DNA of 38,422 bases from Candidatus Methylomirabilota bacterium. Lineage in GTDB: Bacteria > Methylomirabilota > Methylomirabilia > Rokubacteriales > DASRDR01. Under the pieces are notes generated by a model. That model was not told where the DNA came from. It did no database searches and saw only the letters and a list, made by a program, of their open reading frames with translations. The stretch is taken from positions 1-38,422 of the forward strand of contig DASYQW010000162.1 in assembly GCA_036005065.1 (NCBI GenBank), in the 5' to 3' direction. Each line of letters begins with the position of its first letter. The first letter of the stretch is position 1. Both the position numbers and the translations under genes were made by a program. Shown here piece after piece: positions 604 to 29,309 of the stretch.

Positions 604-688
604 GGCGCCTTCCAGACCCTCGTCCACGTCGTCGTTCCACGAGCCCGGCCAGGAGTGATCGCGACCTCGGGGTTCCCTCTCCCACAAG

Positions 689-8210: not shown

Positions 8211-8219
8211 AGGGACACC

Positions 8220-9722
8220 ATGAACGAGTACGACAAGCTCATCTTCGAGCTGTCGGTGCCCGGGCGGGTCGGCTTCTCGCTCCCGGATGCCGACGTGCCC
8301 GAAGCCGACCCCGCCCGCCTGCTGCCGGCCGAGCATCTGCGGACGACCCCGCCCGCCCTCCCCGAGGTCAGCGAGTTCGACGCGGTCCGCCACTACACGC
8401 GGCTGTCCCGCATGAACTACGGGGTCGACACCCACTTCTACCCGCTCGGCTCCTGCACCATGAAGTACAACCCGAAGGTCAACGAGGACATGGCGCGGCT
8501 GCCCGGCTTTGCGCGCCTTCACCCGCTGACGCCCGACGAGGCGATGGCGGGGGCGCTCGAGCTGATGGTCCGGCTCGGCGAGATGCTGGCCGAGGTGGTG
8601 GGGATGGACGCGGCGTCGCTCCAGCCGGCCGCCGGGGCCCAGGGCGAGCTGGCCGGGGTGCTGATGATCCGGGCCTTCCACCTCGACCGCGAGGGCAGCC
8701 CGCGGAAGAAGGTGCTCGTGCCCGACTCGGCCCACGGGACGAACCCGGCGTCCACGACGATCGCCGGCTATCAGACGATCCAGCTCAAGTCCGACGCCCA
8801 CGGCGAGGTCGACCTCCTCGACCTCGAGCGGAACCTCGACGAGGACGTGGCGGCGTTCATGATCACGGTGCCGAACACGCTCGGGCTGTTCGAGTCGAAG
8901 ATCCTCGAGATCACCGGGATCTGCCACGCCAAGGGCGCCCAGGTGTACATGGACGGCGCCAATCTGAACGCGCTCCTCGGCATCACCCGGCCGGGCGACC
9001 TCGGTTTCGACGTCGTCCACATGAACCTCCACAAGACGTTCACGACGCCCCACGGCGGCGGGGGCCCCGGTGCCGGCCCGGTCGGAATCAAAGAGCACTT
9101 GAAGCCGTTTCTTCCGGTCCCCGTCCCGAGCCGCGACGGGGAACGCTATCGCCTCGACTGGAAGCGGCCGAAGTCGATCGGGAAGCTCCAGTCGTTCTGG
9201 GGCAACTTCGGCATGCTGGTCCGCGCCTACACCTACATCCGCACGATGGGCCCCGACGGGCTGCGGGCCGTCTCCGACAACGCGATCGTCAATGCGAACT
9301 ACGTGAAGGCCCGCCTCGCCCCGCACTACGACCTCCCGTACGCCGGGCACTGCATGCACGAAGTGGTCTTCTCGGCCCGGCGGCAGAAGCGGCAGGGGGT
9401 GGTGGCGACCGACATCGCCAAGCGGCTCCTCGATCTCGGCTTCTACGCCCCCTCGATCTACTTCCCGATGATCGTCGAGGAAGCGCTGATGATCGAGCCC
9501 ACCGAGACGGAGGCGAAGGAGACGCTCGACCAGTTCTGCGACGCGATGATCCAGATCGCCCACGAGGCGGAGACGGCCCCCGAGACGGTCCACGCGGCGC
9601 CGGTCACGACGCCGGTCAACCGCCTCGACCAGACGCTGGCCGCCCGCCAGCCGAACCTCCGCTGGAGAGCGGGGACCTCCGGGCCGGTGGGGGTACCGCC
9701 GGCCGGACGGGCCGGGCCCTAG
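8220..9722 (+). CDS. gcvPB: Glycine dehydrogenase (decarboxylating) subunit 2
   Basis: C-terminal, PLP-binding half of the split P protein, 500 residues. The PLP lysine is Lys272 in [17 protein letters not shown]; other signatures are [38 protein letters not shown] and the C-terminal [22 protein letters not shown] (in part). AGAGGGA lies about 6 nt before the ATG, 9 nt after gcvPA, so all four gcv genes form one operon. The last 20 or so residues ([16 protein letters not shown]) are low-complexity and just precede repeat copy A, a possible sign of stop-codon drift at the gene end. Confidence 0.95.
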
Positions 9723-9724
9723 GA

Positions 9725-9852
9725 CCCTGTCGGAGTAACTCGGGAGCTCGCCCCGAGCGCGCGCCCCGTCGGGCAGCGCTCCGAGCGGCGGCTGTGCCGC
9801 CGCAACCGAAGGGGGGCATCGGGGGGTCTTCCGAGACCCCCCCGAGCAACTA
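9725..9852 (-). repeat. Dispersed intergenic repeat, copy A
   Basis: Read on the minus strand it begins CTAG (containing the stop of glyQS), then a hairpin CGGGGGGGTCT/AGACCCCCCG, then GGCGGC...GCCGCCGCTCGGAGCGCTG, and ends GAGTTACTCCGACAGGG near 9725. It fills the gap between the convergent gcvPB and glyQS genes and could act as terminator for glyQS. Related copies are at 18109, 24244, 29532, 33386 and 38141. Confidence 0.8.
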
Positions 9853-11340
9853 GCCGCTGGCGCTCGGCTGGCTCGGGTACCGCTCAGCGATGCTCGTCCA
9901 CGCGGTGCCCGTGAGGAGCGCCGCGCACACGCTCTCGAGCTCCGCGATCGGAACGCGGATCTGGCCCATCGAGTCGCGGTCCCGAACGGTCACCCGCTCG
10001 TCCCCCACCTCGCCCTTGGTCGGATCCCCGACCGTCTGGACGTCCACGGTGACGCAGTACGGTGTGCCCACTTCGTCCTGGCGCCGGTACAGCCGCCCGA
10101 TGGCGGCCGTGTCGTCGTATACCGTGACCCAACGCTGGGCAAGCCGGTCGCGGAGCTCCCAGGCGCGGGCGACGATATCCTCCCGCTTCCTGAGGAGGGG
10201 AAGGACGGCGATTTTGACCGGCGCCACCTCGGGGTGGAACCGGAGGACGACCCGCCTTTCGCCGCGGACCTCTTCGGTCCGGTAGGCGTCGGTCAGGAAC
10301 GCCAGGAGGCTCCGGTCCACGCCGGCCGAGGGCTCGATCACGTAGGGAACGACGTGAGCCTTCCGCTCTTCGTCGAAATACGTGAGCGTCTTACCGCTGA
10401 CGGCGGCGTGCTGCTTGAGGTCGAAGTCGGTCCGGTTGGCGATCCCCTCGAGCTCGCTCCAGCCGATGGCGAACTGGTACTCGATGTCCACCGTGCGCTT
10501 GGCGTAGTGGGATAGCTCGTCTTTGCCGTGCTCGCGGATCCGCAGGTTCTCGGCCCGGATGCCGTACCGCTGGTACCAGCCGAAGCGCTCCTCGATCCAC
10601 CGCTCGTGCCAGTACTCGTCGGCTGGTTGCCCTCCCACGGTGTCGTGCGGGTTCACGAAGAACTCGATCTCCATCTGCTCGAACTCGCGCGTGCGGAAGA
10701 TGAAGTTCCCCGGGGTGATCTCGTTCCGGAAACTCTTGCCGATCTGCGCGATCCCGAACGGCAGCTTCCGCCGCACCGCCTGGAGCACGTTGTCGAAGTT
10801 CACGAAGATCCCCTGGGCGGTCTCCGGCCGGAGGTAGGTGACGGCGGCATCCTCCTCGACCGGCCCCATGAACGTCTTGAACATGAGGTTGAACTGCCGG
10901 GGCGGCGTCAGCTCGCCCTTGCCGCATTCGGGGCACAGTGTCCGCCGGGTGCCGCAGTGCTTGCAGGGCTCTCTCGCCGGCACCTCGAACCTGTTGTCCG
11001 TCTTGGCCGGGCAGTAGTGGACCCACGGCTGCTCGTCGAGCTTGTCGGCGCGGAAGCGCCGCTTGCACGCCCGGCAATCCACCATGGGGTCGGTGAAGTG
11101 GTCCAGGTGCCCGCTCGCCTTCCACACGCGGGGGTGCATCAGGATCGCCGCGTCGAGCCCCGCCATGTCGCGGCGGCGGAGGACGGTGTCGCGCCACCAC
11201 AGCTCTTTGATGTTCCGCTTCAACTCGACGCCAAGCGGCCCATAGTCCCAGCACGACCCGGTCCCTCCGTAGATCTCGCTGGACTGGTAGACGAAGCCGC
11301 GACGCTTGGAGAGCGAGACGAGGGTGTCCATCTCGACCAT
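9850..11340 (-). CDS. glyQS: Glycyl-tRNA synthetase, dimeric (alpha2) class II type
   Basis: A 496-residue class II synthetase charging tRNA-Gly. Visible features in order: N-terminal [19 protein letters not shown]; a cysteine-bearing insertion ([25 protein letters not shown]); [12 protein letters not shown]; motif 2 [13 protein letters not shown] with [11 protein letters not shown]; motif 3 [15 protein letters not shown]; and a C-terminal anticodon-binding domain ([12 protein letters not shown]). This is the eukaryote/Thermus-like type, not the alpha2beta2 type of E. coli. The ATG at 11340 has no Shine-Dalgarno sequence but TAGCCT lies exactly 6 nt upstream, fitting a leaderless mRNA; Met4 (11331) is an alternative. 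It converges on the gcv operon across repeat copy A. Confidence 0.96.
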
Positions 11341-13590: not shown

Positions 13591-14994
13591 ATGTCGAAGA
13601 GCTATCCGGTGTTAAATTGGCCCGCCGTTCCGACGCCGACCCCGGAGGACGTCTACAAAGGGGAGAGCGACAAGGCGAAGGAGTACGCCTTGTGGCTCGA
13701 GGACAATCTCCGCCAGAGCAAGAACTTCGAGAAGCCCGAGGCGCTCGACACCATCCGGGTGCTGGACTGCACCAGCCAGATGATCATCGGCCACTGGTGC
13801 TCGTCGCTCTTCGCCGAGCTGGGGGCCGAAGTCATCATGGTCGAGCCGCCCGGCGGGGATCCCCTCCGCAAGCTGACCCCCTTCGGCCGGAAAGAGTACA
13901 TGTTCAAGGATTCCGTCAGCGGTGAGGAGGTCGGGGCCCGGTTCCTGGCCGAGGCCCGCAGCAAAGAGTCCGTCACCCTGGACCTGACCAAGCCCGAGGG
14001 GCGTGAGATCCTGAAGAAGCTCGCCACCCACGCCGATGTCATCATCGAGAACGCGCCCCCCGGCCAGTGGGACGAGTGGGGGATCGGCTATCGGCAGCTC
14101 TCCCAGATCAATCCCCGTCTGGTCTACTGCTGGGTCGGTCAGCTCGGCCAGTGGGGGCCCCTGAAGGACAAGCCGGGCAACCTCGATCCCACCGCGCAGG
14201 CCGCCTGCGGCTTCGTCCACGGGACCGGCGCGCCGGTGGCCTTCGGCGGCACCCCCACCCGGTCCGGCTGGTGGATGTGCGATCAGGTCGGGGGCACCGG
14301 CGCGGCCATCGGGATCATGACGGCCCTCAACTACCGGGACAAGGTCTCGGGGCGGGGTCAGTTCGTCGAGGCCACCGGCGCCGCCGGGGTCATCCGGATC
14401 CTGGACTACAACTGGGGCTGGTATGGGATCGACGGCAGCATCCGGCCCCGCTACGGCAACTGGGACCTGGCCATCTGCATCTACGCCGTGAATCCCTGCA
14501 AGGACGGCCAGATCATGGTGGGGGGCGGCCACGACCGGCTCTGGTACCGGATCTGGCGGACGGCCGGGAAGGATCGCCCGGAGGTCGAGGAGCACATCGT
14601 CGAAGACCCCAAGATGAAGGAAGTGACCAACCGGCTGCCCCATTACGCGCAGGTGGAGACCTACACGTCGCTCTGCGAGTGGATGAAGGACAACACCCGC
14701 TCGGAGGCGGAGACCAAGCTCCAGGCCGAAGAGGTGGCCTCGGGCGGCGTGTCCTTCCTCGATGAGGTCTCCGAGTTTCCGCACTACAAGTACCGGGGGC
14801 ACCTGGAGGTCATCGATGACGTCTTTTACGGCAGGGTCCTGATCGGGGCCTCGGCCTTCCTCGGCCAGCGGACTCCGGGCCGGGTGAAGTGGATCGGCCG
14901 GCCGACGGCGTATGACAACGAGGGTGTGTATCGCCGGCTCCTGGGCTTCACCAAGGCGGACATGGACGGGCTCAAGCAGAAAGGGGTGATCTGA
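13591..14994 (+). CDS. CaiB/BaiF family (class III) CoA-transferase, first subunit
   Basis: A 467-residue family III CoA-transferase, moving CoA between acyl-CoA and a free acid through an aspartyl-CoA intermediate. Family blocks: RVLDCTSQMIIGHWCSSLFAELGAEVIMVEPPGGDPLR (in part), SVTLDLTKPEGREILKKL, ADVIIENAPPGQWDEWGIGY, and YRDKVSGRGQFVEATGA. The probable catalytic Asp is Asp231 in GWWMCDQVGG, aligned by motif with the active-site Asp of this family. AAGGAGGTC lies 5 nt before the ATG. An N-terminal extension of about 55 residues precedes the usual start. Its TGA overlaps the ATG of the next, homologous gene (TGATG), which points to a heteromeric enzyme of the benzylsuccinate CoA-transferase (BbsEF) kind. 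The substrate is not readable from sequence. Confidence 0.88.
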   Translation: MSKSYPVLNWPAVPTPTPEDVYKGESDKAKEYALWLEDNLRQSKNFEKPEALDTIRVLDCTSQMIIGHWCSSLFAELGAEVIMVEPPGGDPLRKLTPFGRKEYMFKDSVSGEEVGARFLAEARSKESVTLDLTKPEGREILKKLATHADVIIENAPPGQWDEWGIGYRQLSQINPRLVYCWVGQLGQWGPLKDKPGNLDPTAQAACGFVHGTGAPVAFGGTPTRSGWWMCDQVGGTGAAIGIMTALNYRDKVSGRGQFVEATGAAGVIRILDYNWGWYGIDGSIRPRYGNWDLAICIYAVNPCKDGQIMVGGGHDRLWYRIWRTAGKDRPEVEEHIVEDPKMKEVTNRLPHYAQVETYTSLCEWMKDNTRSEAETKLQAEEVASGGVSFLDEVSEFPHYKYRGHLEVIDDVFYGRVLIGASAFLGQRTPGRVKWIGRPTAYDNEGVYRRLLGFTKADMDGLKQKGVI

Positions 14995-16340
14995 TGGCTG
15001 AGACCCTGAGCTTCGAAGAGTTCTGTCGCGACGTCTTCGATCCGAAGAAGCTCTTCTCGAAGCCGGAGCCGTTGAAGGGGACGCGCTTCCTCAGCTGTAC
15101 CCAATACATCCTCGGGCCCTCCTGTGCGAACTATCTGGCCGAGCTGGGGGCCGAGGTGATCAAGATCGAGCTGCCCCGCCGGGGCGAGCCGATGCGCCAC
15201 ACCACCCCCTTCAACGAGCCCAAGCTCTATCCGCTGTCCAAGCAGATGCCGGAGATGGGGACCGGGCTCGGCTTCTACGGGGCCAACCACAACGAGTACT
15301 TCCTCTCGGTCGATTTCCACAAGCCGGAAGGCCAGGCCATCGTCAAGATGCTGGCGTCCAAGTGCGACGGCGTCGTGGAGAACTACCGGGCCGGGACCTT
15401 CGACCGGTGGGGGATCGGCTACCGGCAGCTCAGCGAGATCAATCCCCGGCTCATCTACCAGTGGCTGGGGGGCTTCGGGGGCTGGGGGCCCGGGCGGAAG
15501 CGCGCGAGCTACGACATCCTGGGTCAGGCCCAGGGCGGCTGCTTCTCGGTCACCGGCTGGCCGCTCGACAAGGGCGGCCTCCCGGCCAAGCAGACCATCT
15601 GGATCATGGACTACTGGGGCGGCATGATGGGGGCCTTCCAGGTCCTGGCCTGCATGTACTGGCGGGACAACGTCTCGGGCCTGGGGAACTTCATGGAATA
15701 CTCCCAGGTGCAAGGCGCCCAGCGGCACCTCTCCGACTGCATCGCCCTCTTCGGCCGGTACGGCCTGGTGGCGCAGCGCTGGGGGAACTGGGACACGCTG
15801 CTTTGCGTCCACGGGATCGTCAAGTGCGGTAAGTCGTCGTATCCCGACTCCAAGAACCCGCAGGAGATGGAGGAGGGGTACATCCTGGTCAGCGCGTATA
15901 CGGACGCCGACTTCGCCAAGCTGATGCGGCTCATCAAGCGGGACGACCTAGCGACGAAGTACAAGACCCACGACGAGCGGGTGAAGGCCGAGAGCCAGTA
16001 CGAGATCTACCCCGCGATCGAGGCGTGGGCCAAGGACAAGACCAAGGAGCAGGCCCGTGATATCCTGACCAAAGAAGGGATCAACAACCAGCCGGTCTGG
16101 AACTCGAAGGAGGTGTCGAACCAGGAGCACTTCCACCTCCGCGGGGAGCTGGAATGGCTGGACGATCCCACGTTCGGCGAGGTCCAGAGCCAGGGCCCTG
16201 CCTTCCACCTCTCGGAGTCCCCGCCCCGCCACAAGTGGGCGCTCAAGCCGGTGGGGGCGGACAACGAGTACATCCTCGGCAAGCTCTGCGGCTTCTCCAA
16301 GACGAAGATCGCGGAGCTCGAGGCGGACGCGATCATTTGA
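14994..16340 (+). CDS. CaiB/BaiF family (class III) CoA-transferase, second subunit
   Basis: A 448-residue paralogue of the preceding gene with the same plan: FLSCTQYILGPSCANYLAEL, GAEVIKIELPRRGEPMRH, EYFLSVDFHKPEGQ, GVVENYRAGTFDRWGIGYRQ and YWRDNVSGLGNFMEY. The likely catalytic Asp is Asp206 in IWIMDYWGGMM. Start and stop of the pair overlap by one base (TGATG), so the two chains are probably made in equal amounts and assemble together. Both copies keep the family Asp, so neither is an obvious dead subunit. A C-terminal segment (KDKTKEQARDILTKEGI) is the usual variable substrate-side domain. The zinc-ribbon gene follows after 31 nt. Confidence 0.88.
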   Translation: MAETLSFEEFCRDVFDPKKLFSKPEPLKGTRFLSCTQYILGPSCANYLAELGAEVIKIELPRRGEPMRHTTPFNEPKLYPLSKQMPEMGTGLGFYGANHNEYFLSVDFHKPEGQAIVKMLASKCDGVVENYRAGTFDRWGIGYRQLSEINPRLIYQWLGGFGGWGPGRKRASYDILGQAQGGCFSVTGWPLDKGGLPAKQTIWIMDYWGGMMGAFQVLACMYWRDNVSGLGNFMEYSQVQGAQRHLSDCIALFGRYGLVAQRWGNWDTLLCVHGIVKCGKSSYPDSKNPQEMEEGYILVSAYTDADFAKLMRLIKRDDLATKYKTHDERVKAESQYEIYPAIEAWAKDKTKEQARDILTKEGINNQPVWNSKEVSNQEHFHLRGELEWLDDPTFGEVQSQGPAFHLSESPPRHKWALKPVGADNEYILGKLCGFSKTKIAELEADAII

Positions 16341-18366: not shown

Positions 18367-18395
18367 TTGCCTCGCCAGACGGCCTTCTCTATAAT
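18367..18395 (+). promoter_or_regulatory. Sigma70-type promoter of the giant carboxylase gene
   Basis: TTGCCT (18367-18372), 17-nt spacer, consensus TATAAT (18390-18395). The start would fall near 18402, about 30 nt before the ATG at 18431. Confidence 0.7.
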
Positions 18396-18430: not shown

Positions 18431-21400
18431 ATGATGCGCGAAGTACAGACCGCCCTGAAAGAGCTCCGGACCGCGAACCCCCTTCTCGACAGACCCAGGC
18501 CGCCGGCGCTCGAGCGGCGCCACCGGCTGCAGAAGGTACTCGTCGCGAACCGGGGCGAGATCGCCAAGCAGTTCTTCTTCGTCCTGAAGGAGGAAGGGAT
18601 CTCCTCGGTGGCGGTCGTAACGGATCCCGACCGCAGGCAGTCCTGGTACGAGTTCGCCGACGAGGTCGTGTATATCGGCGATGCCCGGAACTACACGAGC
18701 ATCCCCGTCGTCCTGGCCGCGGTTCTTCTGTCGAAGGCGAACGCCGTCTATCCCGGCTACGGATTCATCTCCGAGAGCCACCAGTTCGTCGAGGCGATCT
18801 CCGAGTTGTCCCGAGCCCAGGGGCGGGACATCGTGTTTCTCGGGCCGCGGGCGGAGGTGATGCGCCGGGTGGGAAACAAGCTCGACGCCCGCGCTCTGGC
18901 CAAGGCGAACGGCGTCCCTGTGCTCGAAGGGACGGAGTTGATCCGCGATCTGGACCATGCGAAGGCCGAGGCCGCGCGGATCGGATATCCCGTCATGGTC
19001 AAGCTGAACGCCGGCGGCGGCGGAAAAGGGATGGTCGCCGTTTACGACGAGGCCGAGCTCGCGAATGCCTACGAATCAGCCGGCCGGATCGGGCAATCGA
19101 TCTACGGCGACGGCTCCCTCTACCTGGAGACATACATCCGGCGCCCCGTGCACATCGAGGTGCAGATCTTCAACGAGGCGGCGGTGGGCATCCGGAAGTG
19201 CGCCGTTCAGCGGCGGAACCAGAAGATCATCGAGGAAACGGGCGATTTCTTTCTCGACACCCGAACGATGCTGAAGCTGTTGGCAACCGCCGAAAACATG
19301 GCGGCGATCTCGGGCTACGCGGACGGAGGCGGAGTCGGCACCGTGGAGTTCCTGTTCGACGCCGCCACCCGGGATTTCGGCTTCCTCGAGATCAACACCC
19401 GCCTCCAGGTCGAATACCCCGTGACCGACCAGAGCCTGGGCATCGACCTGGCGAAATGGCAGATCCTCTACTTCGACGGCCGGGAAAGCGAGATACCGTA
19501 CTATCAGGTCCGCTTCGCGGAAAAGGACCACGCGATCGAATGCCGTATCTACGCGGAAGACCCCTGGAACAACTACGCCCCGAGCCCGGGCGTCATTCAG
19601 GACCTCGATCTACCCACCTTCAACGGAATCCGCTGCGACGTCGGCTTCAAGAAGGGAGACACCGTACTGCCCGATTACGATCCCATGATCGGGAAGCTCA
19701 TCGCGCGCGGCACGAACCGAAAAGAGTGCCTCCTGCGGTTGGAGCGAGCCCTGAGCGAGCTGTACATCCGCGGGATCACCACGAACGTCGATCAGCTTCT
19801 CAAGATCGTCCGGCATCCCGAGTTCAAGAGCGGCACCTACACGAACCGGCTCCTGGAGGACTCGGAGGAGCTTCAGTCCCCGGAAACGGACGCCGAGCGA
19901 CCCGTCGATGCGGCGGTCTTCTGCGGTCTGGCCGAGCTGGCGCACACCATTCACCAGGCGCTGGAGGACTGTCTGTCCTCGAAGGACCTCGAAGATATCC
20001 TGCTGGAAGGGAGTCTGTCCCTGTCGCCCTCTTTCTACGCCGAGGTCCACGGGAAGCGAATCCGCGTGGACGTCGTGCAGCTCGGGGTCGAGACGTTCGG
20101 CGCCTTCGTGAACAACGTCTACTTCGGCGAAATGCAGATCTCGCGGCGAGTCGAGGGGTACGACGATTTCTTGATCCTCTTTCACGGGCGATCCTACCCC
20201 GTCCGGATCGACCGCCGGCCATCCTTTCACATGCTGCGGGTGATGGAGGAAGATGGCCGGATCCACTATTACCGGATCAAGCTGGAGGCGGCGGGGACCA
20301 GGCGGAAGGCCGATTCTCCGGGGACGGTCCGGTCGCCCTTCCAGGGCTCTTTCGTCGAGTTCGCCGCCGACAAAAGCGGCCAACGGATCCGAATCGGCAG
20401 CCGGATCGAGCGAGGAGAGCCGTTGATCGTGATCGCGGCGATGAAGATGGAGACCGTCCTCTCGTCGCCCGTATCGGGGGTCGTGAGCTATCTGGTGGAG
20501 GACGGCGATCTCTCCCGGCTGGTCCGAGGCACGACCTCCCAGGGGCTGATCCTCGGAAAGGCCCTGACCGAAGGCGAGATCCTGATCATCGTCGACGAGG
20601 AATCGGCGAGGCCGGCGAAGGACCCCGAGCCGGACGCCGTCGAGATCCGCGGGGAGCCCCACGAGATTCTGGGGCGCCTGCGAGATCCGGAGCTGCCGGA
20701 TGGGGGCCTCGGCGAAGCCGCTCGGGTGAATCCCTCCGGCGCCGTGCCTTCGATCCTGTCCCTGGTCCGGTCCTTCTACCTGGGATACCTCCAGGACGAC
20801 GAGATCCCGGCACGACTGGGACGGTTCCTCGAGGACCTGAAGGGGTCCGGGATCCCGATCGACACCTGCGAAGAGATCATCACCGACATTCTCGATGTCT
20901 ATGCCTCCCTCAAGCAGATCTATTCTCCCACGCTGGGAGGCAGCCAGACCTGGTTCGGGGAGATGAATCGCCTGGTGCTGGAATGGGAGAACGAAACCTA
21001 TACGCCTCCCGACTTCTTCCGTTCCGTCCTCGGCTTCCTCTTGCGGAGATACGGGATCTCGTGGTCCGGAGGCAAGCGAAGCGCCGAGATGAAGCTCGCC
21101 CTCTTTCACATCCTTCGGGCCTATTGCGCCATCCGCGACGGGAGAAGCTTGATCGCCGCGCTCCTCGAGCTTCTTCGGGAACGCTCCTTTACCGCGCCGG
21201 GTGTGCTGGCTTCCGTGAGCAACCTTGTCCGCCAGGAACAGTCGGAACGGGACGATTCTCTCGTGGTGCTCGGTCGGGCGTTCCTTTTGGGCGCAGCGGC
21301 TCGGGACCCTGGCCGCGTCGTTCTCGAAGAGAGCGGGGCGGCCCGACCCCACCCGAGCGAGCTGGAGGACGTCGCGCAGAACCCCTTCCTTACCCTCCCG

Positions 21401-24247
21401 GGCGACGACGGAAGCTTCCGCGAACGGGCGATGGCCGCTCTGCGGAGCCCCGAAGCGGATCCCGTTCCGGCGGCTCTTCCCTCCTGGGTGCGGCAGGAGC
21501 TCGACGCGCGAATGCGACTGTGGTCCGGTCGATTTCGAATCGAGCGCCTGCCGTCTTCGAGTCCCACCGTCGTCGTGTATCGACTGACGCCGCTCGAGCG
21601 GGGAGTTCCCGCTTATGCGAGCATCGCCTGGCTCGAGGACGGGGCGCCGTTGCCCGTCTCCGATTCCCGGGGACGCATCGTCTCCGCCCCGAACCTGGAG
21701 AAGGCGGCCGCCCAGGCGGGTCGTTTCCTGGCGGCCTACGACAGGCTGGCCAGAGGCGAAAAGAACCTCGTGGAGATTCTCGCCTGCGGACGGCCGGTCG
21801 AGATGGATCTCGCGGGAAGCGATCCCTCCGTCTTCCAGTACGAGAACCTCGGCCAGATCATGGGGAGGGCCGTCCGCCTCGTGCGCCACGCGAGGCCGGA
21901 GTGGGTCCTTCTGCAGGTCGACGCGAGGCGGCCGGGCCGCCCGAAGGCGGAACGGAAGGTCCTGAACGTCGATCTCGAGCACGGCCGGCCGCGCCTGGAC
22001 CTTCTGCACGAAACCGACCGCCTGAATCCCCTCTGGAACGGCGTCCTCGACGAGAAGAACCAGCGGCTGTTCGATCGGCGCAAGTGGCCCGCTGAGGTCT
22101 GGGCGCAGGAGTGCTTCGACCCGGGCACGGTGCGGGAGGTCCTGATCGAGTCCATCGACGGGATCGGCGAATCGGCGAATCGAAACGCGGGGAGGAACCC
22201 CGTGGCGGCGAAGATCTATGAGGGCCTGATGGCGGGCCGGCCGGCCGTATTCTTCGTCAAGGATTCGCGCATCAGCGGCGGCGCCACCGGGGACCTCGAA
22301 GGGCGGAAATACGCGGCGGCCTGTTACTATGCCTATCTCAAGGACACGCCCCTCTACGTCTGGAACGACGGCGCGGGCGCGAACGTCCGGCAGGGCATGG
22401 TTTCGCTCAACCGCGCGGCCGAGGGCTTCATGCTGAACAGCCTCATCGCCCACGGCGTGAGCTACGACCGGTTCCTGTCAACCGCTCGAAGCTCCGACGA
22501 CCCCGTGCTTCGCGACCTCTTCCACGAGCTCGACCGCGCCTTCGGGCTCGCGAAATCGGCGAACGCGAAACGAGGGCCGCGCTCCTTCTTCCTGGTAGCG
22601 GTGGGCGTCGGCTCCTCGAGCGGGCTGGACGTGTACGGATCCTCCCAGGCCGCCATCCAGATCATCCTCGACTCCGAGCAGTCCTACCGCGTTCTGACGG
22701 GGTCGAACGTGATCCGGTCCGTGACCGGCGAGCAGCTGACCAACTACGAAATCGGGGGCGCCCGGGTCATGGGCCAGTGGACCGGCACGGTGGATCTGGT
22801 CGCTCGCGACCGGATCGACCTGCTCGGCCGGATCCGGCGCATCCACGAGCTGTTCGCGGACGGTGCGAGCCGAGCCGGAATCGCCCGGGCGCCCGGCGGA
22901 TCCTCCCCAGATCCGGATAGCACCACCGACGCCGTGCTGAACGAGCGCCGGATCAGCGCCAACGTCGACAGCGGGACCTTCATGCCCTTCAAAGGGGAGT
23001 ACGTGGAGGCTGGAGCCCTGGTCGGCGGCTTCGCGAAACTCGGGCGGAAACACGTCCTCCTGATGGGCCCGCGGACAGACTCGGGCATTCGCTCCTTCGC
23101 AAGCGTCGTGCGGGCCAAAGAGCTTCTGCAAATCGCGAACAAGACCCGGTCGCCGAAGATCCTGGTCTTCGGCCGAAGATGGTACCGAAGCATCGAGGGC
23201 GAGGACGAGATGGCGATCCAGGCGCGGATGGATTTCGTCCGTCTCCTCTTCGGTCCGGGGCCGCCCCGCGTCCACATCGTCACCCATCCGGAGGGCCTCC
23301 GGCTCGTCACCCTCAACAGCCAGGCGGACGCGGTCATCTACGTGAAGCGGACCGACGATTCGGAGAAGGATCGGCGGCTCGCCCTGAGGACTGCGCCCTT
23401 CCAGGCCGACAGCCTGGAGGACGCCTTCGATCTGGCGAACCGTGTCCTCGGCCTTCTCGGCGCCAAGGGCGGGTCTCTCGCATTCGATCCGCCCACGGGG
23501 GCTCCAGACATCCCGGCCGAGACGTGGCGACCCTACGACATGGTGACGGCCGTCATCGAGGCCGTGTTCGACGCTGGCACGTTCCTCGAGTTCTACGGTG
23601 AAGGACGGCGGGCTGGAGCGTCGACGCTCATCACCGGGCTGGCCACGCTGAACGGGAAGGTCGTCGGCGTGATCGCGGACCAGCCGCTCGGCGGCGGTGC
23701 TCCGGACGCGCCCGGAACCGAAAAGTTCCGCGTGTTCATGGAGTTCCTCGACCGGAACGGGATCCCGCTGGTCATGCTCTCGAATGCCCCCGGTTTCGTT
23801 CCCGGCACGAAGCAGGAGCGCCTTCGCATCCAGCAGATCGGCGGCGAATCTCTGGATGTCAACGTCCTCAGCCGCGTCCCCGTCGTCTCCGTTGTCCTGA
23901 ACCAGAACTTCGGCGGCCGGCAGATCCACGCGTTCAGCCGGTTCCTGAGGCCCGGCATCACCTACATCGCGCTCGACCGGGCCATCCTCGCCGTCATGGG
24001 GGGATCGGCGGCCTTCGACCTCTTCCACGGGGCCCGGTACGCCGAGCTCGTGTCGCAAGGCAGAAAAGAGGAGGCCGACCGGCTCCGGAACGAGTACCTC
24101 GAGGAATTCAACCGCAGGAGCCGGGCCGATCGCGACGCGATGGAAACCGGCGCCCTCGACTGGACCGTGCCCGACCTCGCGGATCTGCGGTCACACGTCG
24201 TTCGCGCGCTGGAGGTCGCCGAGGCGAAAGCCCGGGCCGCCTTCTAA
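18431..24247 (+). CDS. Single-chain multidomain biotin-dependent acyl-CoA carboxylase
   Basis: A 1938-residue protein uniting all carboxylase steps. Residues about 34-475: biotin carboxylase, with LVANRGEIA, the ATP-grasp loop VKLNAGGGGKGM, HIEVQIF, EINTRLQVEYP and IECRIYAEDP. In the QRRNQKIIEE segment an Asn replaces the usual His of QRRHQK. About 490-630: linker/BT-like region. About 633-715: biotin carrier domain with AAMKMETVLSSP; the biotinylated Lys is Lys672. About 720-1130: a largely helical middle region without a recognised domain. About 1230-1938: carboxyltransferase halves (FFVKDSRISGGATGD, VWNDGAGANVRQGM; IADQPLGGGAP, NQNFGGRQIHAFSRF). The order BC-BCCP-middle-CT resembles eukaryotic acetyl-CoA carboxylase more than the usual multi-subunit bacterial enzymes. 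The CoA substrate (acetyl, propionyl or longer) cannot be read. It is monocistronic with its own promoter and lies between repeat copies B and C. Confidence 0.9.
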   Translation: MMREVQTALKELRTANPLLDRPRPPALERRHRLQKVLVANRGEIAKQFFFVLKEEGISSVAVVTDPDRRQSWYEFADEVVYIGDARNYTSIPVVLAAVLLSKANAVYPGYGFISESHQFVEAISELSRAQGRDIVFLGPRAEVMRRVGNKLDARALAKANGVPVLEGTELIRDLDHAKAEAARIGYPVMVKLNAGGGGKGMVAVYDEAELANAYESAGRIGQSIYGDGSLYLETYIRRPVHIEVQIFNEAAVGIRKCAVQRRNQKIIEETGDFFLDTRTMLKLLATAENMAAISGYADGGGVGTVEFLFDAATRDFGFLEINTRLQVEYPVTDQSLGIDLAKWQILYFDGRESEIPYYQVRFAEKDHAIECRIYAEDPWNNYAPSPGVIQDLDLPTFNGIRCDVGFKKGDTVLPDYDPMIGKLIARGTNRKECLLRLERALSELYIRGITTNVDQLLKIVRHPEFKSGTYTNRLLEDSEELQSPETDAERPVDAAVFCGLAELAHTIHQALEDCLSSKDLEDILLEGSLSLSPSFYAEVHGKRIRVDVVQLGVETFGAFVNNVYFGEMQISRRVEGYDDFLILFHGRSYPVRIDRRPSFHMLRVMEEDGRIHYYRIKLEAAGTRRKADSPGTVRSPFQGSFVEFAADKSGQRIRIGSRIERGEPLIVIAAMKMETVLSSPVSGVVSYLVEDGDLSRLVRGTTSQGLILGKALTEGEILIIVDEESARPAKDPEPDAVEIRGEPHEILGRLRDPELPDGGLGEAARVNPSGAVPSILSLVRSFYLGYLQDDEIPARLGRFLEDLKGSGIPIDTCEEIITDILDVYASLKQIYSPTLGGSQTWFGEMNRLVLEWENETYTPPDFFRSVLGFLLRRYGISWSGGKRSAEMKLALFHILRAYCAIRDGRSLIAALLELLRERSFTAPGVLASVSNLVRQEQSERDDSLVVLGRAFLLGAAARDPGRVVLEESGAARPHPSELEDVAQNPFLTLPGDDGSFRERAMAALRSPEADPVPAALPSWVRQELDARMRLWSGRFRIERLPSSSPTVVVYRLTPLERGVPAYASIAWLEDGAPLPVSDSRGRIVSAPNLEKAAAQAGRFLAAYDRLARGEKNLVEILACGRPVEMDLAGSDPSVFQYENLGQIMGRAVRLVRHARPEWVLLQVDARRPGRPKAERKVLNVDLEHGRPRLDLLHETDRLNPLWNGVLDEKNQRLFDRRKWPAEVWAQECFDPGTVREVLIESIDGIGESANRNAGRNPVAAKIYEGLMAGRPAVFFVKDSRISGGATGDLEGRKYAAACYYAYLKDTPLYVWNDGAGANVRQGMVSLNRAAEGFMLNSLIAHGVSYDRFLSTARSSDDPVLRDLFHELDRAFGLAKSANAKRGPRSFFLVAVGVGSSSGLDVYGSSQAAIQIILDSEQSYRVLTGSNVIRSVTGEQLTNYEIGGARVMGQWTGTVDLVARDRIDLLGRIRRIHELFADGASRAGIARAPGGSSPDPDSTTDAVLNERRISANVDSGTFMPFKGEYVEAGALVGGFAKLGRKHVLLMGPRTDSGIRSFASVVRAKELLQIANKTRSPKILVFGRRWYRSIEGEDEMAIQARMDFVRLLFGPGPPRVHIVTHPEGLRLVTLNSQADAVIYVKRTDDSEKDRRLALRTAPFQADSLEDAFDLANRVLGLLGAKGGSLAFDPPTGAPDIPAETWRPYDMVTAVIEAVFDAGTFLEFYGEGRRAGASTLITGLATLNGKVVGVIADQPLGGGAPDAPGTEKFRVFMEFLDRNGIPLVMLSNAPGFVPGTKQERLRIQQIGGESLDVNVLSRVPVVSVVLNQNFGGRQIHAFSRFLRPGITYIALDRAILAVMGGSAAFDLFHGARYAELVSQGRKEEADRLRNEYLEEFNRRSRADRDAMETGALDWTVPDLADLRSHVVRALEVAEAKARAAF

Positions 24248-24349: not shown

Positions 24350-25357
24350 TTAGTCCGAGGGGCTCCTGGTACTATCGCGCTGCCGGTCCAGCTTCTCTCG
24401 AATCCTGCCGAAGGCCTCGAGATCCCGCCGGAGGTCGGGATGGCCGATCCGCTTGTCGATGGCGACGACCTCCTCCATGAGGCGGAGGGCCTCCCGATAC
24501 TCCCCCCGCGCTTCGTGGATCAGGGCCATATTATGGGCGGGGATGGTGGCCCGGAGCAGGTCGCCCGACGCCTCGATCAGGCGCCGGGCCGTGGCGTACC
24601 GTTGATAAGCCCCCTCGAGGTCTCCCAGTCGCCGCTGGACCAGGCCGAGGCTGTTGAGCGTCACGGCCACGCCCGTGGGGTCTTCTGCCCTCTCGTAGAG
24701 CGCCAGGGCCTGCTCGAGAGCCCCGAGGGCCTCTGACCAATTCTCGCGGCGGAGATGTAGACCGCCGATGTTCGCCAGGGTGACGGCCCGACCGAGCGTA
24801 TCCCCGAGCCTTTCCTGCATCTGGAGACTTTTCGTGAAGGCCTCCAGAGCTCCCGAGACATCGCCCATCCGCGCCTTCACCGTCCCGATGTTGTTCCAGG
24901 TCAGCGTGAGGCCCCGCTCGTCTCGGAGCTCCGTCTTCAGCGCGAGGCTTTCCTCGTAGGTTTCGAGGGCCTTGCGAAAGGCGCCTTTCCCCTGGAAGGC
25001 CTCGGCGATCGCGCCCAGTGTGATGGCGGTCCCCACCCGGTCACCCGCCTGCCCGTGCAGAGCCAATGCCCGATGATACAGCTCCAAGGCCCGGTCCCAG
25101 CCTCCCTGCAGATAATAGAGAAAGCCCAGCCGGTGGAGCGCCGGCGCCATCCCCGGCTCATCGGCGATGGTCCCGGCGACTCGGTAGGCCTGCTCCAGGG
25201 CGCTTCGCGCCAGTGCCTCGTCGGGCCCTTCCCTCAGAATCGTGGCCAACTGGGCGAGGGTTTCGACGAGGCCGACCCGGTTCCCATCGGCCTCCTGGGC
25301 CCGGGCCTGGGCCTCCAGGGCCTCCACCGCCTCCCGGGGAGCCTGCGGCGCCGGCAT
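24350..25357 (-). CDS. Tetratricopeptide repeat protein
   Basis: A 335-residue, nearly all-helical protein containing about six TPR-type units of roughly 40 residues (for example ALHRLGFLYYLQGGWDRALEL, TLGAIAEAFQGKGAFRKALE, TWNNIGTVKARMGDVSGALE, TLANIGGLHLRRENWSEALG, TLNSLGLVQRRLGDLEGAYQ). TPR arrays mediate protein-protein contacts. No signal peptide, enzyme domain or DNA-binding motif is visible. Its ATG overlaps the stop of the upstream 451-residue gene (TGATG), so it is translationally coupled to it and is the last cistron of the AAA+/VWA operon. A scaffold or adaptor role is inferred from that context. Confidence 0.85.
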   Translation of the reverse strand: MPAPQAPREAVEALEAQARAQEADGNRVGLVETLAQLATILREGPDEALARSALEQAYRVAGTIADEPGMAPALHRLGFLYYLQGGWDRALELYHRALALHGQAGDRVGTAITLGAIAEAFQGKGAFRKALETYEESLALKTELRDERGLTLTWNNIGTVKARMGDVSGALEAFTKSLQMQERLGDTLGRAVTLANIGGLHLRRENWSEALGALEQALALYERAEDPTGVAVTLNSLGLVQRRLGDLEGAYQRYATARRLIEASGDLLRATIPAHNMALIHEARGEYREALRLMEEVVAIDKRIGHPDLRRDLEAFGRIREKLDRQRDSTRSPSD

Positions 25358-26712
25358 CAGCCCTCCTCGGGCGCCGGGGCAAGCCGAAGGCCGGTCCCGA
25401 TGACCTCCCGGATTGCCAGAAAGCGGCCGGGCCTTTCCGCGTCCGGCACCATCTCCTCCAGCTCCAACATCATTCGAGTGACGTGCCGGTTCAGGCTCTG
25501 GAGATCGTCGGCATTCCGGAGCTCCATCATGCAGCGGTCGAGGGCGCGCTGATAGATCGGCTGGTGCGTCAGGCCGACCTGATAGGCTGGGTCGAAGAGG
25601 AGTTCGTACCGCTCCGTGAGCAGGAGGCGAGACAGGTGTCGGGCGGCTTGAAGCGAATCCATCGCCTCGTTGTCCGCCTCCAGGACGATGAACTTGTCCT
25701 TGAAGGGGAGGAGCTTCCACACCTGCGGGTTGATCGGTTCCCTTACCCACAGGCGTCCTGAGCGGTATCGAAGCGCGAAATCGCAGATCGTGCGGTCTCC
25801 AAGCCGCATCGACAGCCGGGGCAAGAGGGCGGTGAGTGCTTCCACGGGAATTTCGCCGAGGCTCTTGTACCTCGACCGGATGGGCGCGAGCTCTCGTCGT
25901 TGCTCCTCGAGCCCCATGAGCTCGAGAAGGACGCGGAGAGAGCTCTGGAGCTGCGAGAGATTCATCCCCCCGACCGCGTCCCTGATCTGTGGATTCAGCA
26001 CCTCGGGCAGTTCGGTCGGCGGCGTGCGCGGCCACGGCGCCATTCGCTCCCCGAAGAGATGGTCGAAGGGCGGAGTGAGGCCGACCCCCCGGCCAATCGC
26101 CTCCCGGAGGGTGGTCAACACGGGATCCACGGCCGAGGCGTCGCGGAAATCGCGACCGCTCAAGGCGGCGAGAGCCTGCTCCTTCAGTTCCTCGATTGCC
26201 GTGTCGCCGAGGCGTTGCAAGCTGTCGAGGACGTCGAGGTAGGCATTGAACTCGACCGCCGCCTCTCCGAGGCCGGGATCGTGGAAGAGGTTGAAATGGA
26301 GGCAGACGAAGAGCCTGGCCAGCTCCCGTCGAACCTGGTAAGGCTGCAAGGCTCTCGCATCCTGCTGCAAGAGTCCCCACTTCTCGGCGGCCGACATCGA
26401 CTGAAGCTCTTCATTGGTCAAGTCCTGCAGGCTCGTTCCGGGCGTGAACCGCTTCGCCTCCAAGGCCTGCAGGGCATGCGCGGTGTACCGCGAGACGAAG
26501 CCCTGCGCGACGTGCCGCATCTGATGCAGCTCGAGGTGTTCGCTGAAGTCGCCGAGCATCTCCTGCGCCGCCGTCGGGGAGAGGCAGTCCCGAAGCACTC
26601 GGACGGTCCACCGGAGCTCGGCTTCCTCCATGAAGGGAATCCGCTCCAGCAGCTCTTCGGCCCGCCGCTCGATGTACCGGCGCTGCGGGGCGATCCGTGA
26701 CGGCTCTTCCAT
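25357..26712 (-). CDS. Unknown 451-residue helical protein of the AAA+/VWA operon
   Basis: A long, predominantly helical soluble protein from ATG 26712, the first Met after the previous gene (38 nt gap). N-terminal region: RYIERRAEELLERIPFMEEA, then LSPTAAQEMLGDFSEHLELH and NLSQLQSSLRVLLELMG. The C-terminal third has a mixed segment (MRLGDRTICDFALRYRSGRL, LLPFKDKFIVLEADNEAMDS). No known catalytic motif, cysteine cluster or membrane helix. The start has only a weak ribosome binding site (GAG), so coupling to the upstream gene is likely. I do not recognise the family; its fixed place between the VWA gene and the TPR gene suggests a partner of the ATPase. Confidence 0.75.
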   Translation of the reverse strand: MEEPSRIAPQRRYIERRAEELLERIPFMEEAELRWTVRVLRDCLSPTAAQEMLGDFSEHLELHQMRHVAQGFVSRYTAHALQALEAKRFTPGTSLQDLTNEELQSMSAAEKWGLLQQDARALQPYQVRRELARLFVCLHFNLFHDPGLGEAAVEFNAYLDVLDSLQRLGDTAIEELKEQALAALSGRDFRDASAVDPVLTTLREAIGRGVGLTPPFDHLFGERMAPWPRTPPTELPEVLNPQIRDAVGGMNLSQLQSSLRVLLELMGLEEQRRELAPIRSRYKSLGEIPVEALTALLPRLSMRLGDRTICDFALRYRSGRLWVREPINPQVWKLLPFKDKFIVLEADNEAMDSLQAARHLSRLLLTERYELLFDPAYQVGLTHQPIYQRALDRCMMELRNADDLQSLNRHVTRMMLELEEMVPDAERPGRFLAIREVIGTGLRLAPAPEEG

Positions 26713-26750
26713 CTCACGCGCCTCGTTGGTCGTCTGTCGAGATTCGACGG

Positions 26751-27092
26751 TCAGATGGAGTCGGGACAGAAGATGGCCCAGGGGAAGTTGTAGTAGTCCT
26801 CGCCCATCCACTCGTCGATATGGGCCCCGTGCTCCCCGCGATAGGCGAAGTCGGCGTCGAACTCGTACGCGACGATCATCCGCTCTTCGAAATCGAAGTA
26901 GCGGATGGCGAAGCGCTCGCAGCCGTCGACATAGTGGGCGTCGATGGGACGGATGTCGGCGTGATCCATCCCCACCGCCCTCAGCAACTGGTAGAGGTCG
27001 TACCGCGTCCCCTGAATGGTCAGCTCGGTGAGGCCGCGCCCGATCTCCCCGAACCGCTCTTCCATGCGTTTCCGTTCCTGCCCTGGAACCAT
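26751..27092 (-). CDS. Unknown 113-residue acidic protein of the AAA+/VWA operon
   Basis: A short acidic protein, start ATG 27092 supported by GGAGGA 8 nt upstream. Conserved-looking segments are GLTELTIQGTRYDLYQLLRAVGM, the aromatic FAIRYFDFEERMIVAYEFDAD and the C-terminal DEWMGEDYYNFPWAIF (each given in part). There are no cysteine pairs, membrane helices or known motifs. It lies 65 nt after the VWA gene and 38 nt before the 451-residue gene on the same strand, so it belongs to that operon. Family not recognised; Met10 (27065) is a possible internal start. Confidence 0.7.
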   Translation of the reverse strand: MVPGQERKRMEERFGEIGRGLTELTIQGTRYDLYQLLRAVGMDHADIRPIDAHYVDGCERFAIRYFDFEERMIVAYEFDADFAYRGEHGAHIDEWMGEDYYNFPWAIFCPDSI

Positions 27093-27157
27093 TCTGGCTG
27101 TCCTCCGGGTTTCTTGCGGCGCGACGCTTCTCGGGCTGTCGCCCCGCGTCGCGCGGG

Positions 27158-28267
27158 TCAGTCGTCGAAATGGCGATCGCGGCCGATCGCCTCCAAGATG
27201 CGCTCGGCGCTGATCTCGTCCATGGGATAGAACTCGCCCCCCATGGCCGCGGCCAGTTCTTCGGCGGGCGCCAAGACATGCGGGTCTGACGTCCGCCGGC
27301 CCTGGCCGGCCGTGCCGAGGACGATGCTGCGGATCTTTCCGGCCCGGATGATCTCCCCGAGCCGAGCGGCTTCCTGGCCGGGCGCCGTGTCGCCCATCGA
27401 CACATTGGCCCGGCCGTCACTGATGAGGATGAGCACGGGGTTGAGCTTCCGTTCCTTGCGACGCTCCTGCTGGATCAGCTCGTAGCCGGTGAAGAGCCCC
27501 CTGGAAAGGGGCGTCGTGCCTCCGGTGGCCAGGGATTGGAAGGCCCTCTTGGCCAGCTCCACACTCGACGTCGGGCGCAGGATGACGGCGGCCGACTGCT
27601 CGCGAAAGGTGACCAGGCCCACCCGATCCCGGCGCTGGTAGGCATCTACCAGCAGGGACAGGATCGCCCCTCGAGTGGCGAGGAGCCGCCGCTGCGTGCC
27701 CATGGAGCCGCTGCAGTCCACCACGAAGAGGAGCAGATGGCCGACCTTGCGCTCTCGGACCTTGGCGTGGAGGTCCGAGGGCTCGACCTGGACAGCCATA
27801 TCCCGCGGCTCTCGGCGTTGCCGGTGCAGGGCGGCCGTACGGATCGTCGCATCGAGGGCAACGTCCCGGCTGAGGGGGCCGGCATGGAAGGCGCGGATGT
27901 AGCGGCCGCGGGCGAGCTCGGTCCGGGCGGTGCCCCGCTTGCCCGGCGTGTCCCGGCGTTGCCGCTCCTTCCGGGAGGTGAGCAGATGGGGGTTATGGCC
28001 CTCCATGATCCGCTGGAGTAGGACCTCGTCGAATTCGATCCTTTGCATCTCCCGATCGTAGGGTCGGTAGGGGCAATCATCCTGATCGCAGTGACACAGG
28101 CGGGCCGCTGCGCCGACGCTCCCCGCCCCGCCGGAGCCTCCACCCCCGCCTGGTCCCTCCCGGGGTCGGCGATCCGTGCTGTCGTGCGCCGTCCGGGACG
28201 CGCGGCTGACACCCGGGGAGTCTCTCGGATCGATGGCGGCCGAGACCGACGAGGCAGGCTCCGCGTC
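27158..28267 (-). CDS. VWA-domain part of an AAA+-VWA (ChlD/BchD-like) protein, reached by +1 frameshift
   Basis: Open from Asp codon GAC 28267 to the stop at 27158. It first encodes a 73-residue linker that turns Pro/Gly-rich (GPGGGGGSGGAGS) and ends with a Cys cluster CHCDQDDCPYRPYDRE, then 296 residues from Met 28048. The VWA domain shows the MIDAS signature DCSGSM (Asp111 from that Met), the Thr motif GGTTPLSRG and ISDGRANV. This matches the C-terminal half of Mg/Co-chelatase D subunits. The ATG at 28048 has no ribosome binding site except GGGAG directly against it; no ATG, GTG or TTG occurs in this frame between 28267 and 28048. Reading through the site at 28265-28280 would fuse it to the AAA+ protein (716 residues). 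An independent, shorter product from 28048 cannot be excluded. Confidence 0.85.
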   Translation of the reverse strand, partial: DAEPASSVSAAIDPRDSPGVSRASRTAHDSTDRRPREGPGGGGGSGGAGSVGAAARLCHCDQDDCPYRPYDREMQRIEFDEVLLQRIMEGHNPHLLTSRKERQRRDTPGKRGTARTELARGRYIRAFHAGPLSRDVALDATIRTAALHRQRREPRDMAVQVEPSDLHAKVRERKVGHLLLFVVDCSGSMGTQRRLLATRGAILSLLVDAYQRRDRVGLVTFREQSAAVILRPTSSVELAKRAFQSLATGGTTPLSRGLFTGYELIQQERRKERKLNPVLILISDGRANVSMGDTAPGQEAARLGEIIRAGKIRSIVLGTAGQGRRTSDPHVLAPAEELAAAMGGEFYPMDEISAERILEAIGRDRHFDD

Positions 28268-28280
28268 AAAGATGCCTCCT
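28265..28280 (-). promoter_or_regulatory. Programmed +1 ribosomal frameshift site, prfB-like
   Basis: Minus strand AGG AGG CAT CTT TGA C: a Shine-Dalgarno-like AGGAGG, a 3-nt gap, the slippery CTT and an in-frame TGA followed by C. The E. coli prfB (RF2) recoding site is AGGGGG TAT CTT TGA C, so only two bases differ. A +1 slip from CTT to TTT places the ribosome on GAC (28267), exactly the frame of the VWA gene, with 73 open codons before its first Met. Observed directly; frameshifting itself is inferred from the match. Confidence 0.88.
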
Positions 28281-29309
28281 TTCCAGGAATGCGCCGGTCA
28301 GACGATCCAGTGTCTTGGCATCCAGGGCGCTTTCCTGGAACGGCAGACGCTTGACGCGGTGGCGGAGGCTCAGCTCGACGATGTCCCGAAGATCCTGCGG
28401 GGCCGGCTCCTGCTGCCCCCGAAAAGCGGTCGCGGCCAGGCTCGCCTTCAGCATGGTGATCTCGGCCCGATGGCCGTCCACCTTCATCTCTTCGGCCACC
28501 TCGGCGACGAGTTCGATCAGCTCGTCGGCCGGGGTCAGAGCGGGGAGAAGCTCCCGAGCCCTGGCGATCTCGGCTTGGAGTATCTCTTGCGAGGCCTGCC
28601 ACTGCAGCCGGAACGCGTCCGCGTCGGTCTGGAAGGCCAGCGCGCGACGGGCGATCTCCTTGCGGTGCTCCCGGGACCGCTCGGTCTGGATCTCCACACA
28701 GAGGCCGAACCGGTCCAGGAGCTGTGGTCTCAGTTCCCCCTCCTCGGGATTCATGGTCCCCACCAGAATGAACCGGCACGGGTGGGCATAGCTCACGCCT
28801 TCCCGTTCCACCAGGTTGATCCCGGTGACGGCGACGTCGAGCAGGAGATCGACGATGTGGTCATCCAGGAGGTTCACCTCGTCGACGTACAGAATGGCCC
28901 GATGGGCCCGGGCCAGGATGCCGGGCTGGAAGGCCTTCTGCCCCCTCTTCAGTGCCGCCTCGATGTCGATGGATCCCACGACTCGGTCTTCCGAGGCATT
29001 CAGGGGGAGATCCACCACCGGAGTGGAGGTCTCGCTGAGCGATAGTGCTTCTCCCCTTTCCACCTTGGCCTGACACTCCGGGCAGAGGCCCTCTTTCTGG
29101 TCGGGGTGACAGGCGAACGCGCACCCGTGCACGACGAGGCGTGGCGGGAGGAGCTCGGCGATGCCCCGGACGGCGGTGGACTTGGCAGTGCCCTTTTGCC
29201 CGCGGATCAGAACCCCTCCGAGGCCAGGATCGATGGCATTGAAGACGAGCGCCTTCTTCATCGTGTCCTGGCCGAGGATCGCCGAGAACGGAAAGAGGGG
29301 TCGCTTCAC
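28266..29309 (-). CDS. AAA+ ATPase, Mg/Co-chelatase I-subunit type (ChlI/BchI-like)
   Basis: A 347-residue AAA+ ATPase of the chelatase I family. Walker A GQKGTAKST (residues 37-45), Walker B AILYVDEVNLL (138-148), the chelatase insert SIDIEAALKRGQKAFQPG and sensor region ILVGTMNPEEGELRPQLLDRFGL (in part). Four cysteines C63, C67, C76 and C79 (GCAFACHP, LCPECQ) form a probable metal site not needed for the core ATPase. The start is GTG 29309 with AAGGAG 6 nt upstream. The frame ends ERRHL-TGA at 28266, inside the prfB-like recoding site, so it can either terminate here or continue into the VWA part. No CobN/ChlH-type large chelatase subunit is in the window. Confidence 0.93.
   Translation of the reverse strand: MKRPLFPFSAILGQDTMKKALVFNAIDPGLGGVLIRGQKGTAKSTAVRGIAELLPPRLVVHGCAFACHPDQKEGLCPECQAKVERGEALSLSETSTPVVDLPLNASEDRVVGSIDIEAALKRGQKAFQPGILARAHRAILYVDEVNLLDDHIVDLLLDVAVTGINLVEREGVSYAHPCRFILVGTMNPEEGELRPQLLDRFGLCVEIQTERSREHRKEIARRALAFQTDADAFRLQWQASQEILQAEIARARELLPALTPADELIELVAEVAEEMKVDGHRAEITMLKASLAATAFRGQQEPAPQDLRDIVELSLRHRVKRLPFQESALDAKTLDRLTGAFLERRHL

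Follow-up and report, generated by a model that had tools for sequence, protein, structure and literature searches.

A bacterial single-chain acyl-CoA carboxylase family, mostly of spirochaetes, with a middle region probably related to, but shorter than, the eukaryotic ACC central domain

The window (the whole stretch of DNA analysed, 38,422 nucleotides) encodes a single-chain carboxylase. We take it, with a probability of about 0.75, to belong to a distinct bacterial family that combines a shortened central domain with a PccB/AccB-type carboxyltransferase (CT) and has a role in malonyl-CoA supply. The family is mostly one of spirochaetes, and its member in the window was probably acquired by transfer.

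The carboxylase gene, its domains and its carboxyltransferase

The carboxylase frame is ATG-initiated and free of internal stops. Reverse-strand open frames lie opposite it, as expected at such GC, and no separate gene was seen on that strand, where similarity to relatives only mirrors the carboxylase gene. The features are as follows.

18367..18395 (+): tentative sigma-70-type promoter-like site, TTGCCT-17-TATAAT, shortly upstream of the ATG (pattern scan: 1 found, 0.4 expected)
18431..24247 (+): whole coding sequence, single-chain acyl-CoA carboxylase, 1938 aa (open frame; relatives align along it)
18518..19870 (+): biotin carboxylase (BC) domain, residues 30–480 (Pfam; solved BC chains to E 6.5e-92)
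19208..19225 (+): QRRNQK, residues 260–265, with Asn263 where other BCs have His (family alignment)
19928..20305 (+): BT-like region, residues 500–625, between BC and BCCP (9tps_G aligned over residues 27–688)
20318..20515 (+): BCCP, residues 630–695 (Pfam Biotin_lipoyl)
20444–20446 (+): biotin Lys672 within BCCP (motif AMKMET)
20708..21304 (+): CDN/CDL-like helical part of the central region, residues 760–958 (AlphaFold model; PDB fold matches)
21317..21406 (+): disordered linker, residues 963–992 (pLDDT <50)
21533..22006 (+): single CDC-type alpha/beta domain, residues 1035–1192 (strand-helix order, fold matches, profile alignment)
22148..22870 (+): CT N half, residues 1240–1480 (PccB/AccD-type)
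22928..23365 (+): third, degenerate crotonase-fold unit inside the CT, residues ~1500–1645 (relatives, profile match, model)
23393..24244 (+): CT C half, residues 1655–1938 (Pfam, CT profile, family alignment)
23924–23926 (+): putative selectivity residue Ile1832 in the CT C half (equivalent of PccB D422 / AccB I420)

Pfam places Biotin_carb_N at residues 33–144, CPSase_L_D2 at 151–345, Biotin_carb_C at 370–476, Biotin_lipoyl at 632–692, and Carboxyl_trans in three stretches, the best being 1694–1935. The biotin-accepting lysine is conserved throughout the 35-row family alignment, in which the BC residues E320, N322, R324, and E328 are likewise invariant. With a BC, a BCCP lysine, and a CT in one chain, the protein has, judged from its sequence, what defines a biotin-dependent acyl-CoA carboxylase. 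The initial annotation had read BC, BCCP (Lys672), and both CT halves in one open frame, and the frame, the Pfam matches, and the AMKMET motif agree with it. It had also pointed to QRRNQK in place of the usual QRRHQK. This is confirmed, and it is the family norm rather than a quirk of the window gene (Asn in 33 of 35 rows, His in two). In CT-N, Leu1399 (22625–22627) replaces the second oxyanion Gly, at a position invariant in 35 rows. Given this change and the Asn for the BC His, substrate or kinetics could differ.

By sequence, the BC and the CT both belong to bacterial types, the CT being PccB/AccB-type in both halves. The family CT profile matched PccB/AccD-type subunits in the PDB at 6e-53 and the CT of LCC at 1.4e-13, and returned no eukaryotic ACC below 1e-3; without the insert described below, it matched PccB at 1e-57 vs 0.025 for the human ACC1 CT. 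These scores suggest that the CT lies outside the eukaryotic ACC clade. The architecture had been called eukaryote-like, a description that holds for the order of domains and for the middle, but not for the BC or for the PccB-like CT.

The two CT halves are separated by a conserved insert of ~150 residues, which is present in all relatives that reach that far. Profile comparison aligned the insert with the beginning of CT-C (probability 84, E = 7.6e-6; controls 0.06–0.14), and in its model the crotonase strand/helix order appears a third time. Because the profile match and the repeated order agree, we interpret the insert as a degenerate third crotonase-fold unit, presumably a partial copy of CT-C with a structural or regulatory part to play. 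We know of no description of a third crotonase-type unit inside a carboxyltransferase.

Substrate and role

At the site of PccB D422 / AccB I420, an Ile is associated with the use of acetyl-CoA and an Asp with that of propionyl-CoA (PMC7835884). This site (Ile1832) is Ile in 35 of 35 family rows. Ketosynthase-type neighbours occur in 13 of 34 loci of relatives and include type I KS-AT-ACP-KR-DH proteins directly upstream of the carboxylase gene; in five distinct genomes a gene of biotin-ligase type sits just upstream, and seven loci have a starter-transacylase-type gene nearby (typed by Pfam on representatives only, with the remaining loci assigned by blastp grouping). Among 393 sampled Spirochaetota genomes, accA was found in 124 and the single-chain carboxylase, detected by a profile of its middle region, in 31 (one additional marginal match left out), and only one genome carried both (9.8 expected, P = 7.5e-5, a statistic that ignores kinship). 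Strong accA matches were obtained in the window's genome and in three Burkholderiales-labelled genomes; among the other carriers searched, only G093 had one. The ketosynthase, biotin-ligase, and transacylase neighbours, together with the near mutual exclusion with accA, point to malonyl-CoA supply. We infer that the family is an acetyl-CoA (perhaps propionyl-CoA) carboxylase that would provide malonyl-CoA.

In the proposed mechanism, the BC would carboxylate biotin on Lys672 with ATP and bicarbonate, and the BCCP arm would swing carboxybiotin to the PccB/AccB-type CT, where a short acyl-CoA would be carboxylated; acetyl-CoA, yielding malonyl-CoA, is the most likely substrate and propionyl-CoA a possible one. 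The middle, with its helical part and one CDC-type domain, would serve as a non-catalytic scaffold that places BC and BCCP over the CT, and the enzyme is probably a homodimer. In Spirochaetota the family appears to replace the usual multi-subunit AccABCD and would stand in for it as the main enzyme; free PccB-type CTs in these genomes could be another source of malonyl-CoA. Since the window's genome has accA, the carboxylase there would be an extra enzyme, an accessory source of malonyl-CoA.

It is unlikely, in our judgement, that the enzymes instead carboxylate propionyl-, longer, or polyketide-type acyl-CoA, specialised per host. Such a specialisation would suit a PccB-type CT and the changed residues in BC and CT, as well as the polyketide or polyunsaturated-fatty-acid-type synthases that adjoin the carboxylase in several relatives, the nonribosomal-peptide-type ORF that adjoins it in L080, and, in the window's genome, two class III CoA-transferases in the window with accA elsewhere. 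However, the invariant Ile favours acetyl-CoA, accA is nearly absent from the spirochaete carriers, and malonyl-CoA is the extender that type I synthases usually require, all of which argue for acetyl-CoA carboxylation. The two adjacent CoA-transferase genes (CaiB/Frc family; 13591–16340, +) lie upstream of the carboxylase, and their nearest models, succinyl-CoA:mesaconate and formyl-CoA transferases, are far below cut-off. No fatty-acid or biotin-ligase gene adjoins the carboxylase in the window, and a gene-neighbour comparison of the window with its closest relatives found no conserved neighbours.

In a 2011 survey, none of the three spirochaete genomes included had an enzyme of the AccABCD type (PMC3199775), which left the source of malonyl-CoA in such bacteria open. 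For a portion of the phylum, the family offers a concrete answer that can be tested.

The region between BCCP and CT

The stretch of ~500 residues between BCCP and CT that the initial annotation had found unrecognisable indeed has no Pfam match (residues 695–1240), including to any common bacterial domain, an outcome that it had also considered, and with the middle region as query, sequence searches of Pfam and the PDB gave no usable match. In the AlphaFold model of the middle (15 sequences, pLDDT 76.8), helices at residues 760–958 are followed by the disordered linker and then by the alpha/beta domain at 1035–1192, whose strands and two long helices are modelled in CDC1/CDC2 order, the helices falling between strands 3/4 and 4/5. 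The middle had been described as mainly helical, which is right for residues 760–958 but not for the last ~160 residues (1035–1192), predicted to form a beta-sheet domain with two long helices.

A Foldseek search of the middle model against the PDB (350,542 chains) ranked eukaryotic ACC structures holding the central domain in all of the top 23 places (best E = 3.7e-6). The fold matches of the helical part are to the yeast/human ACC central domain, and those of the CDC-type domain include the AC3-AC5 fragment 5cs4, with its profile aligning to human CDC2. Comparison of the 35-row family profile with the eukaryotic central domain, represented by three sequences (human, yeast, and Chaetomium) from PDB alignments, gave an alignment of 322 columns that ends on CDC2, with a score of 41.0 (E = 3.3e-4); controls scored ~21 when reversed and at most 24.3 in 120 column shuffles. 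The local hhalign match was weak with 15 family sequences and higher with 35, and global mode returned nothing for the middle vs the eukaryotic central domain. The AlphaFold models, built on 15 sequences, have mean pLDDT of 77 and 75 and low global TM-scores to yeast ACC (~0.2), so that the case for homology to the central domain comes from the local fold and from profile scores that are modest.

Because the fold search and the profile comparison agree, the middle is likely related to the eukaryotic ACC central domain but shorter than it, with one CDC-type unit adjoining the CT and without CDC1. The model thus has a related fold with a single CDC-type domain in place of the CDN-CDL-CDC1-CDC2 layout. 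The initial annotation had suggested an independent analogue instead, that is, an unrelated helical plus alpha/beta spacer in the position that the central domain has in eukaryotic ACC. We regard such a coincidence as quite improbable. Pfam ACC_central gave no above-threshold match in any family member scanned (best 0.045, in one member), hmmsearch of the middle profile against PDB sequences found no ACC, and the CT is not eukaryote-like, so the context of the middle differs; yet that sole sub-threshold ACC_central match is in the correct place and order, the highest-ranked PDB chains are without exception eukaryotic ACC, the profile score far exceeds its controls, and the CDC fold has no close structural relatives outside ACC (PMC4833862).

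The likely kinship with the eukaryotic central domain, a regulatory region considered characteristic of animals and fungi, bears on where that domain originated. CDC1 and CDC2 have been proposed to have arisen by duplication (PMC4833862), a proposal on which a shorter form of the domain, with only one CDC unit, bears. It is conceivable, and we offer it tentatively, that the family keeps the ACC central domain in its state before the CDC1/CDC2 duplication, joined to PccB-type catalytic domains. Were this true, the central domain would be a bacterial invention, neither eukaryotic nor actinobacterial, that has been joined to different carboxylase halves on two or more occasions, and the CT, with a third and degenerate crotonase unit, would represent a new architecture for this domain.

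Distribution, origin and comparison with known carboxylases

A scan of genome contigs found full-length relatives (40–66% identity) in Spirochaetota MAGs, one unclassified bacterial MAG, and two Burkholderiales MAGs, as well as relatives cut by contig ends in one Desulfobacterales MAG, a third Burkholderiales MAG, and one further spirochaete. The Spirochaetota frames are mostly 1771–2097 codons long, with one of 1416 codons near a contig end, and one member sits on a 4.3-Mb contig. Genome G097 carries two different full-length copies, L023 and L083 (frames of 2013 and 2097 codons). A 992-aa protein encoded next to a divergent family member (L077:1393–4368, −) combines diverged BC domains with a biotinyl domain at its C-terminus (LEVMKMF). 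In the BC+CT tree, the window protein clusters with L009 and L010 (99% support).

Within the window's own phylum, the single-chain carboxylase occurs once among 81 searched genomes. The gcvPB on the window's contig is 73–79% identical to that of most genomes of the same order, and the third-position GC of the carboxylase gene is 0.85 vs 0.92–0.96 in the gcv and CoA-transferase genes. These observations indicate that the contig fits its genome and that the carboxylase gene looks acquired, probably by transfer. Recent local joining of ordinary acc genes through a simple linker (the outcome that the initial annotation had set against its own reading) or a chimeric assembly might be read from the single occurrence in the phylum, but is ruled out, as is a frame open by chance, by the full-length relatives, which share the architecture end to end across several phyla, and disfavoured by the fit of the contig to its genome, and we reject it.

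Elsewhere in the window, a formate dehydrogenase alpha subunit (~680–3403, +) is encoded by a frame that passes an in-frame TGA at 1163–1165 in a selenocysteine-like context (RVUHSSTV), the listed ORF 1178–3403 being only the portion after the TGA, and an FdhB-like gene follows at 3437–4213. The split glycine dehydrogenase genes gcvPA and gcvPB adjoin a glycyl-tRNA synthetase gene (6849–11340), and a second gcvPB, 88% identical, is on contig C34 of the same genome. Genes with TPR repeats, a von Willebrand A domain, and a MoxR-like AAA ATPase lie downstream of the carboxylase (24350–29309, −).

A literature search that covered few subscription journals found no paper on a spirochaete enzyme of this kind. 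The nearest known system is SACE_4237 of Saccharopolyspora erythraea, a bacterial multidomain ACC of ~200 kDa with BC, BCCP, central region, and CT in one chain (PMC6491548). It is an acetyl-/propionyl-CoA carboxylase, active as a dimer and essential in its host, and its CT falls into group V together with eukaryotic ACC (PMC6491548). A bacterial multidomain ACC with a central region is therefore already known, and the window family is a variation on it that keeps the order BC-BCCP-central-CT. Its PccB-type CT would set it apart from SACE_4237 as described, the human ACC1 CT (0.025) serving as proxy in our comparison. Searching plasmids for SACE_4237-type sequence returned only ordinary beta subunits.

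Eukaryotic ACC (human ACC1, yeast Acc1) has in common with the family the order BC-BT-BCCP-central-CT and the central fold. The family differs from it in having one CDC-type domain instead of two, and hence no CDC1 with its phospho-regulatory loop, in its PccB-type CT, and in the extra third CT unit. PccB, AccB, and AccD5 beta subunits belong to the same CT sequence family (1e-53 to 1e-57), and the Ile of the window family is as in AccB I420, but they are separate subunits with neither the inserted third crotonase unit nor a fused BC/BCCP. LCC (PDB chain 4rcn) also carries BC, BCCP, and CT in one bacterial chain; at 1093 residues, however, it has no room for such a central domain, and its CT is far more distant. 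The window protein, with its 500-residue central region, is not of this type (chains of ~1100 residues without a central domain), and the initial remark that it is much longer than known LCCs is correct. The Shewanella oneidensis AccADCB (PDB 9kkm; 1517 residues) is likewise a bacterial single-chain ACC holoenzyme, but its AccA-type CT lies near the N-terminus (residues 133–288), so that both domain order and CT type differ from those of the window family.
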